Shown here: positions 12,513 to 62,708 of the stretch, piece after piece | Layout of the letters: each line of letters starts with the position of its first letter | Position numbering within the stretch: position 1 is the first letter of the stretch | Source: Kiritimatiellota bacterium B12222 | GTDB taxonomy: Bacteria > Verrucomicrobiota > Kiritimatiellia > SS1-B-03-39 > UBA6053 | Direction of reading: 5' to 3' | Assembly: GCA_029719485.1 (NCBI GenBank) | Contig: CP120722.1 | Location: 744,001 to 808,000 of the forward strand | Length of the DNA: 64,000 bases | The notes under the pieces: model-generated | Database searches by the model: none | What the model saw: the letters and a program-made list of their open reading frames with translations, nothing else | Told to the model about the DNA's origin: nothing | Position numbers and translations under genes: made by a program

Positions 12513-12675
12513 ATCGGGCAGGATGCCCTCGCTCCGGGTTGGGGGAGCTGGGTGGGGTTTTCTGGTTTGGTTTTAGGAATCGGGCAGGATGTCCTCGCTC
12601 CGGGTTGGGGAGTTGGGTGGGGTTTTCTGCTTTGGTTTTAGGGATCGGGCAGGATGCCCTCGCTCCGGGTTGGGG
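12513..12675. repeat. Repeat family A, three direct copies
   Basis: The 12283-12810 gap is non-coding. It contains three copies of a unit beginning ATCGGGCAGGATGCCCTCGC and ending TCCGGGTTGGG, starting at 12513, 12579 and 12644 (period about 65). Each has an internal hairpin GGGCA-GGA-TGCCC (copy 2 has GTCC). The filler between copies (TTTTCTGGTTTGGTTTTAG) is also shared. The same family occurs at 21407-21613. Beyond it, 12676-12810 is AT-rich and probably holds the promoter of the next gene. Confidence 0.9.
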
Positions 12676-21406: not shown

Positions 21407-21613
21407 ATCGGGCAGGATGCCCTCGCTCCGGGTTGGGCGGTGGTGGGTGTTTTGGTTTGGTTTTAGGAATCGGGCAGGGATGCCCTCGTTCCGGGTTGGA
21501 GAGTCTTTTTTTTTGTTTTGGTTTTGGGAATCGGGCAGGGATGCCCTCGCTCCGGGTTGGGCGGGGGCGGGTGTTTTGGTTTGGGGAAACTGGAGCGAGG
21601 GCATCCTGCCCGA
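21407..21613. repeat. Repeat family A, three direct copies and one inverted copy
   Basis: The 21315-21617 gap contains the same ATCGGGCAGG(G)ATGCCCTCGC unit as at 12.5 kb, three times in direct orientation (from 21407) and once inverted at 21590-21613. The last direct and the inverted copy can pair over more than 20 bp, and the inverted copy is followed by six Ts just before the helicase stop codon. Filler sequence (GTTTTGGTTTGG) is shared with the 12.5-kb locus. Confidence 0.9.
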
Positions 21614-29720: not shown

Positions 29721-30935
29721 ATGGTATTTTTTATTCTCGCAATCCTCGTATTCACCGGCGTTATTTGTCTGCTGGTTTTCGGACTGATGTCCGCATCCAA
29801 AGCGCTGTCTCCCGGTGGAACGGTCACCATTGATATTAACAACGGTGCCAAGGTGTTGGAAGTTGCTCCCGGTAGCAGCTTGTTAACCAGTCTCGCCTCC
29901 AACAACATTTTCCTTCCCTCCGCTTGTGGCGGTGGGGGTACTTGCGCCATGTGCAAATGCCAAGTGAAAGAAGGTGGCGGACAGATTCTGGCTACTGAAA
30001 AAAGTCAGATTTCGAAACCTGAACAAAAAGAAGGCACTCGTCTGAGTTGTCAGCTGAAAGTGAAAGAAGACATGAAGATTCACGTGCACGATGAAGTGCT
30101 CGAGATCAAAAAGTTTGAAGGCACTGTACGCTCCAACAACAACGTCGCAACCTTCATCAAAGAGTTGATTGTCGACTTGCCTGAAGGAGTGGATCTTAAC
30201 TTCCAAGCCGGTGGTTATATTCAGATCGACGTACCTACCTACGACATCAAATTCAAAGACTTCGATATTCAGGAAGAATACCGCAGCGATTGGGATCAAT
30301 TTAAATTGTGGGATTTGGAACACTGTAACGAAGAAGAGTGCTTCCGTGCGTATTCAATGGCCAACCATCCTGCTGAAGGTAATTGTGTGATGTTGAATAT
30401 TCGTATCGCCACGCCTCCCCGTGGTATGGACGTACCTCCCGGTGTTTGTTCCACCTACGTGTTTAACTTGAAGCCTGGTGACAAAATCACTTTGTCTGGT
30501 CCTTACGGTGAGTTCTTCATCCGAGATACCGAACGTGAAATGTGCTACATTGGTGGTGGTGCTGGTATGGCACCGATGCGTTCGCATCTCTTCCATCTCT
30601 TCCAAACCTTGGAAACCGGTCGTAAAGTTACCTTCTGGTACGGCGGACGCTCCAAGAAAGAATTGTTCTACTTGGAAGATTTTGAAGACATCAAAGCCCG
30701 CTTCCCGAACTTCGATTATACCATTGCGTTGAGTGATCCTCAGCCCGAAGATCATTGGGATGGTCCGGTTGGATTTATTCACCAGGTTTGTCAGGACGAG
30801 TACTTGCTCAAACATGAAGACCCTGCTGAAATCGAATATTATATGTGCGGTCCCCCGCCCATGATTTCCGCGGTGAACAACATGTTGTATAACCTCGGTG
30901 TTGAAAAGGAAATGATTTCATACGACGCATTCTAA
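29721..30935 (+). CDS. nqrF: Na+-translocating NADH:quinone reductase subunit F
   Basis: A 404-residue subunit: an N-terminal membrane anchor (2-25), a [2Fe-2S] ferredoxin domain (SACGGGGTCAMCKC, with the fourth Cys in RLSCQL), then a ferredoxin-NADP reductase-like part with FAD-binding RAYSMANHP, GGGAGMAPMRSH and the NADH-binding CGPPPM. It takes electrons from NADH into the complex. The operon ends at the terminator just downstream. Confidence 0.97.
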   Translation: MVFFILAILVFTGVICLLVFGLMSASKALSPGGTVTIDINNGAKVLEVAPGSSLLTSLASNNIFLPSACGGGGTCAMCKCQVKEGGGQILATEKSQISKPEQKEGTRLSCQLKVKEDMKIHVHDEVLEIKKFEGTVRSNNNVATFIKELIVDLPEGVDLNFQAGGYIQIDVPTYDIKFKDFDIQEEYRSDWDQFKLWDLEHCNEEECFRAYSMANHPAEGNCVMLNIRIATPPRGMDVPPGVCSTYVFNLKPGDKITLSGPYGEFFIRDTEREMCYIGGGAGMAPMRSHLFHLFQTLETGRKVTFWYGGRSKKELFYLEDFEDIKARFPNFDYTIALSDPQPEDHWDGPVGFIHQVCQDEYLLKHEDPAEIEYYMCGPPPMISAVNNMLYNLGVEKEMISYDAF

Positions 30936-30956
30936 GTCGGGAAATCTATCCTCAAC

Positions 30957-30992
30957 AAAAAAACCTTCGGTCAAAACCGAAGGTTTTTTTTG
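30957..30992 (+). terminator. Rho-independent terminator of the nqr operon
   Basis: AAACCTTCGGT (30961-30971) and ACCGAAGGTTT (30976-30986) form a perfect 11-bp stem with a CAAA loop, followed by a run of Ts and preceded by a run of As, so it may work in both directions. The first copy of repeat family B starts four bases after it. Confidence 0.92.
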
Positions 30993-30995
30993 TGC

Positions 30996-32035
30996 GTAGC
31001 TGTCGGCGTTTACGCCACGGGCCAGAGCTGAGGGATGGGTTGTGGTCTGTGGCCTCAAGGCCGACAGCTACCGTGAGAAGAGGCATGCAACTGGCGGCTT
31101 TATTGAAAGTGACGATAAAGGCGGCGCCGCGTAATTTTTGATAGGTCAAGGTTTGTGTGAAGCTGTCGGCGTTTACGCCACAGGCCCGTGCTGAGGGAAG
31201 GGTTGTGGTCTGTGGCCTCAAGGCCGACAGCTACGCTGAGAAGAGGTATGTAACTGGCGGCTTTATTGAAAGTGACGATAAAGGCGGCGACGCGTAATTT
31301 TTGATAGACCAAGGTTTGTGTGTAGCTGTCGGCGTTTACGCCACTGAGGGATGGGTTGTGGTCTGTGGCCTTAAGGCCGACAGCTACGCTGAGAAGAGGC
31401 ATGCAACTGGCGGCTTTATTGAAAGTGACGATAAAGGCGGCGAAGCGTAATTTTTGATAGACCAAGGTTTGTGTGTAGCTGTCGGCATTTACGCCACAGT
31501 CCAGAGCTGAGGGATGAGTTGTGGTCTGTGGCCTCAAGGCCGACAGCTACGCTGAGAAGAGGTATGTAACTGGCGGCTTTATTGAAAGTGACGATAAAGG
31601 CGGCGACGCGTAATTTTTGATAGGCCAAGGTTTGTGTAGCTGTCGGCGTTTACGCCACAGGCCCGTGCTGAGGGATGGGTTGTGGTCTGTGGCCTTAAGG
31701 CCGACAGCTACGCTGAGAAGAGGCATCAAAATGGGGGCTTTATTGAAAATGACGATAAAGGCGGCGACGCGTAATTTTTGATAGACCAAGGTTTGTGTAG
31801 CTGTCGGCGTTTACGCCACAGGCCCGTGCTGAGGGATGGGTTGTGGTCTGTGGCCTCAAGGCCGACAGCTACGCTGAGAAGAGGCATCAAAATGGGGGCT
31901 TTATTGAAAGTGACGATAAAGGCGGCGACGCGTAATTTTTGATAGACCAAGGTTTGTGTGTAGCTGTCGGCGTTTACGCCACAGGCCCGTGCTGAGGGAT
32001 GGGTTGTGGTCTGTGGCCTCAAGGCCGACAGCTAC
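30996..32035. repeat. Tandem array 1 of palindromic element family B with FNT-like spacers
   Basis: Seven copies of a 76-bp-class element (first copy 30996-31071, last copy 31960-32035) alternate with six nearly identical spacers of about 80 bp. The element starts GTAGCTGTCGGCGTTTACGCC and ends GGCCTCAAGGCCGACAGCTAC; the ends are imperfect inverted repeats and each arm contains its own small hairpin (GGCG-TTTA-CGCC and GGCC-TCAA-GGCC). One element copy (31322) has a shortened centre. Read on the minus strand, each spacer codes for YQKLRVAAFIVTFNKAA, resembling YQKLGFAAFIVIFIKAA of the FNT gene next door. Open frames through the array are by-products, not genes. Confidence 0.93.
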
Positions 32036-32810
32036 GGTGCATTTTGAGGAGGAACCAGCCGGTGAGATACATAGCGCCGAGGGCGTTTCCAAGAATGACG
32101 GGAATTTGATTCCAGAAGAGCCATTGGAAAATATTGATTTCGGCTCCCAACATCATGCCTGCGGGTATGACGAACATGTTGACCACGCAATGCTCCAAGC
32201 CGAGGGCGAAGAAGGTGAAGATAGGCATCCATATGGCTAAAATTTTTGCAGAAATGCTTTTGGATACAAAGGCCATGACCACGCCCATGGATACCATCCA
32301 ATTACACAGGGCCGCTTTGATGAAAATGACGATAAAGGCTGCGAATCCTAATTTTTGATAGGCTAAGGTTTTGGCTTCCGCTACTGCGATGACTTTTTCG
32401 ATCAGAGGGGAGCTTTCCACATGTCCGAGTTTACTGATGTAGATGGAGAAGAGGAGGGCATAGAGGATACTTCCAATGAAATTTCCCAGAATGACCCACT
32501 TCCAGTTTTTAAGCATATCCTGCTGTTTGATTTGGCCTCGAAAAAAAGCCATGGGAATGATGGCGAAATTTCCGGTGACCAATTCGGTACCCAGTAGAAT
32601 GATCATTACAAATCCAACAGGAAATGCGAGTGCACCCAGAAAGGGCATGCCGCTTTCGACAGTCACCGTGAGGGCGAGCGTGGTGGAGATGCCTAAAAGC
32701 AGTCCGGAATAGATGCCCCGCCATAACATGAGCTCATGGGGGAGCAGGGCTTTTTTCTTACCCAATGCGGTTAAGGTATCAACGAGTTCGATCGGGGTCG
32801 GTGGGATCAT
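32019..32810 (-). CDS. Formate/nitrite transporter (FNT) family channel
   Basis: A 263-residue membrane protein with six helices. LLGTELVTGNF and CVVNMFVIPAGMMLG are the two FNT half-repeat loops, and HCVVN supplies the central pore histidine. It is the last gene of the minus-strand nirK cluster, so nitrite (NirC-like) is the likeliest substrate. ATG 32810 is chosen as the start of the conserved part; the frame continues upstream without homology. The last five residues and the stop codon are encoded by the final copy of the palindromic repeat, so the natural C-terminus has been replaced. Confidence 0.85.
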   Translation of the reverse strand: MIPPTPIELVDTLTALGKKKALLPHELMLWRGIYSGLLLGISTTLALTVTVESGMPFLGALAFPVGFVMIILLGTELVTGNFAIIPMAFFRGQIKQQDMLKNWKWVILGNFIGSILYALLFSIYISKLGHVESSPLIEKVIAVAEAKTLAYQKLGFAAFIVIFIKAALCNWMVSMGVVMAFVSKSISAKILAIWMPIFTFFALGLEHCVVNMFVIPAGMMLGAEINIFQWLFWNQIPVILGNALGAMYLTGWFLLKMHRSCRP

Positions 32811-61883: not shown

Positions 61884-62015
61884 GATGCTTATGTGGTGAA
61901 TCTATTTGAAAACGCAAGTCTGGGTCGTTGTTGTGATGGGGGGTAAGGGGCGGGCTCTGGTGAGAGCTAAATATGAATTAGAGCATCAAGAACATACGTT
62001 TCGAGATAGGCTCTG

Positions 62016-62676
62016 GTCTGTGGCGTAAACGCCGACAGCTACAAAAACCGCATGTATTCAGGTGTAGCTGGCGCCGTTTACGGCCTAGGCCAGAGAATGC
62101 GGAAGCGAAGTTTAGGCTCCGGTCTGTGGCGTAAACGCCGACAGCTGCAAAAACCGCATGTATTCAGGTGTAGCTGGCGCCGTTTACGGCCCGGGGCAGA
62201 GAATGCGGAAGCGAAGTTTAGGCTCTGGTCTGTGGCGTAAACGCCGACAGCTACAAAAACCGCATGTGTTCAGGTGTAACTGGTGCCGTTTACGGCCCGG
62301 GCCAGAGAATGCGGAAGCGAAGTTTAGGCTCCGGTCTGTGGCGTAAACGCCGACAGCTACAAAAACCGCATGTGTTCAGGTGTAACTGGTGCCGTTTACG
62401 GCCCGGGCCAGAGAATGCGGAAGCGAAGTTTAGGCTCCGGTCTGTGGCGTAAACGCCGACAGCTACAAAGCCGCATGTATTCAGGTGTAGCTGGCGCCGT
62501 TTACGGCCCGGGGCAGAGAATGCTGAAGCGAAGTTTAGGCTCCGGTCTGTGGCGTAAACGCCGACAGCTACAAAAACCGCATGTGTTCAGGTGTAGCTGG
62601 CGCCGTTCACGGCCCGGGGCAGAGAATGCGGAAGCGAAGTTTAGGCTCCGGTCTGTGGCGTAAACGCCTACAGCTA
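62016..62676. repeat. Tandem array 2 of element family B with mscS-terminator spacers
   Basis: A 106-bp unit repeats through this stretch: an 85-bp element (for example 62064-62148) and a 21-base spacer AAAAACCGCATGTATTCAGG. The right arm CTGTGGCGTAAACGCCGACA occurs seven times and the left arm GTAGCTGGCGCCGTTTACGG six times; both are close to the arms of array 1. The spacer copies the first half of the mscS terminator hairpin just beside the array. Open frames across it are periodic artefacts. The first element is truncated on the left. Confidence 0.93.
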
Positions 62677-62708
62677 CAAAAAAACCGCATGTGTTGCCAC
62701 ATGCGGTT
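62677..62708 (-). terminator. Rho-independent terminator of mscS
   Basis: AACCGCATGTG (62683-62693), loop TTGC, and CACATGCGGTT (62698-62708) form a perfect 11-bp stem; on the minus strand it is followed by seven Ts. It lies 20 bases after the mscS stop. Its left half is repeated as the spacer of array 2. Confidence 0.93.

Follow-up and report, generated by a model that had tools for sequence, protein, structure and literature searches.

A tandem REPIN array that repeats flanking DNA beside a formate/nitrite transporter gene in Kiritimatiellota bacterium B12222

Background

REPs are thought to act as hairpins at the 3' ends of transcripts, and the BIMEs of enterobacteria consist of alternating inverted REPs in tandem at gene 3' ends, joined by linkers that are standard motifs common to many loci. 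The array that we describe here shares with BIME tandem arrays the alternating inverted REPs and the position at gene 3' ends, but its spacer is unique to one locus. CRISPR arrays also set a palindromic repeat and a spacer in regular alternation; here, however, the repeat is 76 nt long and dispersed over the genome, and in place of distinct, foreign-derived spacers there are six near-identical ones, all copied from a single stretch of the adjacent chromosomal gene, so that we rejected a CRISPR assignment.

Tandem REPINs that include flanking sequences have already been described (Bertels and Rainey 2011, PMC3116915), and the reiteration of REPs along with stretches of adjacent DNA is likewise on record (PMC3733652), the latter source also naming the Verrucomicrobia (O. 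terrae) as rich in GTAG REPs. The statement in the initial annotation that no described bacterial repeat class behaves in this way is therefore wrong; the array exemplifies, in good preservation, a process already known, and is not a repeat class of its own. With the ordered REPIN clusters of PMC3116915 it shares doublets of inverted REPs folding as a single hairpin and REPINs in tandem with a locus-specific flank, a trait present here and at other loci of the genome; their association with RAYT genes has a suggestive counterpart here in RAYT-like genes that score below the NCBIfam cut-off. It differs from those Pseudomonas clusters in belonging to a relative of the Verrucomicrobia, in a different phylum, in having seven copies, and in that the repeated flank is a recognisable gene-internal piece that would have undergone deletions.

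Results

Architecture of the array

We analysed a window of 64,000 nucleotides (positions 744001-808000 of a 4.43-Mb single-contig genome). TRF reported a repeat at 30989-32036 with a period of 163, 6.5 copies and 92% matches, and the element coordinates resolve this into seven palindromic elements of ~76 nt alternating with six near-identical spacers of 85-87 nt (Table 1), which bears out the layout given in the initial annotation. Element starts are spaced 163, 163, 153, 161, 161 and 163 nt along the array. The C-terminal codons and stop of the transporter gene FNT1 (RSCRP-TGA) are located within the seventh element. A cluster of changes within ~9 nt, denser than elsewhere in the unit, sets spacers 5 and 6 (CCCATTTTGATG) against spacers 1-4 (GCCAGTTGCATG).

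Table 1. Features of the array and its neighbours (window positions)
Feature	Position	Strand	Basis
Tandem array, seven REPIN elements and six spacers	30996..32035	none	
Element 1, REP doublet GTAG...CTAC	30996..31071	none	
Spacer 1, FNT-derived	31072..31158	minus (sense)	
Element 2	31159..31234	none	
Spacer 2, FNT-derived	31235..31321	minus	
Element 3, 66 nt, 10 bp shorter than the other elements	31322..31387	none	
Spacer 3, FNT-derived	31388..31474	minus	
Element 4	31475..31550	none	
Spacer 4, FNT-derived	31551..31635	minus	
Element 5	31636..31711	none	
Spacer 5, FNT-derived; end KAPILMPLLS still like FNT ...AIWMPIFT	31712..31796	minus	
Element 6	31797..31872	none	
Spacer 6, FNT-derived	31873..31959	minus	
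Element 7; gives FNT1 its last codons and TGA stop	31960..32035	none	fold
FNT1, formate/nitrite transporter gene (PF01226), spacer source	32019..32810	minus	
FNT1 segment matched by spacers	32310..32371	minus	
nqrF-like gene (Fer2, FAD-binding and NAD-binding domains), convergent with FNT1	29721..30935	plus	
AAGGTTT in nqrF terminator, proposed left duplication breakpoint	30980..30986	plus	
AAGGTTT inside FNT1, proposed right duplication breakpoint	32365..32371	plus	

The element is a dispersed GTAG-type REP doublet

The 76-nt element starts with GTAG, ends with CTAC and is made up of a pair of REPs inverted to each other; each half folds as ....((((.((((....)))))))), a short hairpin with a 4-bp stem, preceded by a GTAG that stays unpaired. 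The doublet GTAG...CTAC folds at -24.7 kcal/mol (z -6.0), and none of the shuffles was as stable. These traits are the ones described for GTAG REPs and for REPINs (PMC3733652, PMC3116915), and judged by such class features the element is of a known dispersed bacterial repeat kind, a GTAG-type REP doublet or REPIN. Its likeness to the GTAG-tagged REP families of PMC3733652 is one of features, not of sequence comparison with the listed families, and the stop of FNT1 is a TGA inside the element rather than the TAG of GTAG.

Searching the genome with the element gave 95 matches, corresponding to about 63 copies spread over about 22 places, and the copies that we read in detail lie mainly outside genes. 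Several of the places are other tandem arrays, with periods of 175, 137, 106, 97, 256, 97 and 105 bp. Two Y1_Tnp genes above the Pfam cut-off, at 2148678 and at 3628865, have elements next to them: the former is preceded by a REP doublet at 2148426-2148509, and an array directly follows the latter, its GTAG supplying the TAG stop of the gene. For both proteins the sole NCBIfam match is NF047646 (RAYT), with scores of 52 and 46 bits where the cut-off is 80, so that the link of the element family to RAYT-like genes is suggestive only; the family was probably moved by a RAYT-like Y1 transposase of the same genome. At L136:12652-13630 (G000 3628150-3629912), a stretch that takes in position 3628865, the RAYT-like Y1 gene has REPs on both sides and ends in the GTAG of an eight-unit REPIN array.

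The spacers match an internal segment of FNT1

Within each spacer, 60 nt match FNT codons 148-167, and comparison of the spacer consensus with the gene gave the same 50/60 identity that had been counted by eye in the initial annotation. The best score in 500 dinucleotide shuffles of the FNT gene was 32/60, and the best in the rest of the window 31/60. The spacers agree with one another (57-62/63) better than with the gene (49-51/63), again as first noted. A second block is less secure: spotted by eye before testing, it pairs the last 23 nt of spacers 5 and 6 with FNT codons 192-199 at 17/23 (reached by 6 of 5000 shuffles and by none of 430 other window segments), while spacer 2 matches weakly at 14/23 (345 of 5000 shuffles). 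The 3' end of the spacer in gene sense is thus probably also gene-derived, from about codons 192-199. We also considered an origin of this end from the C-terminal FNT codons (WFLLK) by a single deletion, which is the less likely course, codons 192-199 being its best ungapped placement.

The spacer consensus is closer to FNT1 (50/60) than to the paralogue FNT2, which lies 46 kb away with 73% identity to FNT1 (40/60), or to the FNT genes of the congeners G003 (41/60) and G004 (38/60), and the spacer residues AAFIV and KAA are common to FNT1 and absent from all three of the others. On these comparisons the spacer is derived from the adjacent FNT1, and FNT2 and the congener genes are ruled out as its source. 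The FNT gene of G004 (L039, L043) carries stop codons and a frame break; FNT1, FNT2 and the G003 gene are intact.

With FNT2 and the G003 and G004 genes as outgroups, 12 of the 13 differences between spacer and FNT1 could be polarised. FNT1 accounts for four of them, of which three are silent and one replaces a residue, and the spacer for eight, of which two are silent and six replace a residue; these are small numbers, but they fit a selected gene and a copy released from selection. The polarised changes give the direction of transfer as from gene to spacer.

Outside the array and FNT1, the spacer was not found in the genome itself or in 38 relatives (39 genomes), and it accompanies the element at no FNT-free site among them; the relatives G002 and G005 carry the element without the spacer. 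Since the spacer is present only in the array and the FNT gene, it is not part of the dispersed repeat. The proposal in the initial annotation that an element had captured a piece of this gene, or of a lost paralogue, with joint amplification of the pair, accordingly stands as to an FNT piece joined to the element and amplified with it; its lost paralogue is unsupported, because AAFIV and KAA occur in FNT1 and are missing from FNT2 and the FNT genes of the two congeners.

The locus in a congener

Synteny is kept at locus L045 of G003, with copper oxidase/cytochrome (NirK-like), SCO-like, radical SAM, FNT, nqrF and other nqr genes, and neither the REPIN element nor the spacer was found in its FNT-nqrF interval. 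The FNT C-terminal ends read KMHGVAKQPVAAPAN in G003 and KMHGSPKSTSAASAEA in FNT2, and KMH-RSCRP in FNT1, where the last residues are read from the element. The simplest reading is that the REPIN came to the 3' end of FNT1 after the split from the congener and that the array grew later. The G003 interval (L045:4830-5240) holds an unrelated short repeat (AGCCCTGTAGGGGCGGCTCTC with GGCCGGGGCGAAAGCCCCGG), itself repeated with its flank; the FNT-nqrF interval has apparently gained repeats twice independently.

Neighbouring DNA in other arrays of the genome

We compared the arrays with their own flanks by blastn; PEP-CTERM and LacI gene ends lie within the array bounds used and are therefore unlisted in that comparison. 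In the array at 4053419-4053968, every unit includes a 69-bp piece from the 3' end of an adjacent GDSL/SGNH hydrolase gene; its 87% identity is almost equal to that in the FNT case. Each unit of the array at 132238-132943 contains the terminal codons of both a PEP-CTERM gene and a convergent LacI gene, and a 9-bp word, CCTTCCACC, stands at both of its outer edges. The window contains one more array of this REP family, at 62007-62695 (genome 806007-806695; period 106, ~6.5 units), with a spacer that, read by eye, repeats half of a terminator-like hairpin standing whole at the right edge. Neighbour DNA is thus common in these REPIN arrays, and the FNT case differs only in that its piece is internal to the gene. 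Two arrays of another repeat (ATCGGGCAGGATGCCCTCGCTCCGGGTTGG...) lie in the window at 12513-12675 (period 65) and 21407-21584 (period 61).

Junctions and a proposed origin

Within 30900-32500, the word AAGGTTT is confined to 30980, to 32365 and to a single site in every spacer, immediately ahead of the element. Read on the plus strand, the spacers follow FNT up to AAGGTTT and then follow the nqrF flank (GTG[CT]-GTAG). This junction is what would be left by a duplication between the outer AAGGTTT copies, a 7-bp word being short evidence for a breakpoint. Such a duplication would be expected to leave the complete FNT tail at the opposite end of the spacer, whereas the observed spacer is short.

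We consider the array to have arisen when a REPIN and the DNA beside it were amplified in tandem at this locus (probability roughly 0.8), through four steps whose order we infer. A GTAG-type REP doublet would have arrived at the 3' end of FNT1, replacing the last codons and supplying a stop. A segment of ~420 bp, running from the AAGGTTT of the nqrF terminator through the REPIN to the AAGGTTT of FNT1, would then have undergone tandem duplication, through replication slippage from one 7-bp word to the other, for instance, leaving FNT1 whole and a spare, non-coding FNT tail of ~330 bp between two REPINs. The FNT piece comes from ~270 bp inside the gene, unlike that of the GDSL/SGNH array, the best-matching sister array, where the piece adjoins the array, so that one or two deletions must be assumed; these would have taken ~250 bp from the spare tail to give the ~85-nt spacer, the part lost probably being ~25 codons beyond codon 167 plus the whole stretch between about codon 200 and the element. 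Finally, the 163-bp unit would have been multiplied, by slippage or unequal exchange among identical units, to seven elements and six spacers, with the units kept homogeneous thereafter.

Discussion

The existence of FNT2 shows that FNT genes have duplicated in this lineage, and a tandem duplicate of FNT1 would likewise bear FNT1-specific residues; the spacers could on this account be what is left of a third, once complete FNT gene that lay between FNT1 and nqrF, was invaded by REPINs and eroded. We regard this as unlikely, given that the spacer is nearest to FNT1 and far from FNT2, that the syntenic congener has one FNT gene, and that no further part of an FNT gene is left between the array and nqrF. 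About equally unlikely is an active capture, in which a RAYT-type transposase would have moved a REPIN with attached FNT DNA, inserted the composite beside the gene and multiplied it there. RAYT-like genes exist, two of them adjoin elements and the element family is dispersed over the genome, but the spacer never travels, being found at no other element copy in the genome or its relatives, every other array has its own local spacer, and ordinary local duplication explains the junction words. Nor is active capture needed, as tandem duplication of an element and the DNA flanking it accords with both the junction word and the sister arrays. Chance similarity, or uptake of repeat sequence by the gene, has practically nothing to recommend it: the match far exceeds the shuffle maximum, both FNT2 and congener FNT genes with no such repeat adjacent conserve the FNT segment, the polarised comparison runs from gene to spacer, and we found nothing in favour of either idea.

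If the array acts at all, it most likely does so by providing 3'-terminal hairpins for two convergent transcripts, and no function is indicated for the gene scrap in the spacer. That the six spacers retain sufficient complementarity for nqr read-through transcripts across the array to serve as repeated antisense RNA against the FNT mRNA is very improbable; were it true, REPIN amplification would have turned a gene fragment into a local regulator.

The array is a new and unusually legible case of tandem REPINs with flanking DNA, a readable record of REPIN array growth in which one can see the gene of origin, where the breakpoints likely lie and how coding constraint was lost, and its sister arrays show that the carrying off of adjacent gene ends recurs within the same genome. 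Arrays of this type can be of use in polarising and dating local amplification, and they caution annotators against taking short open reading frames within them, which are gene scraps, for genes.
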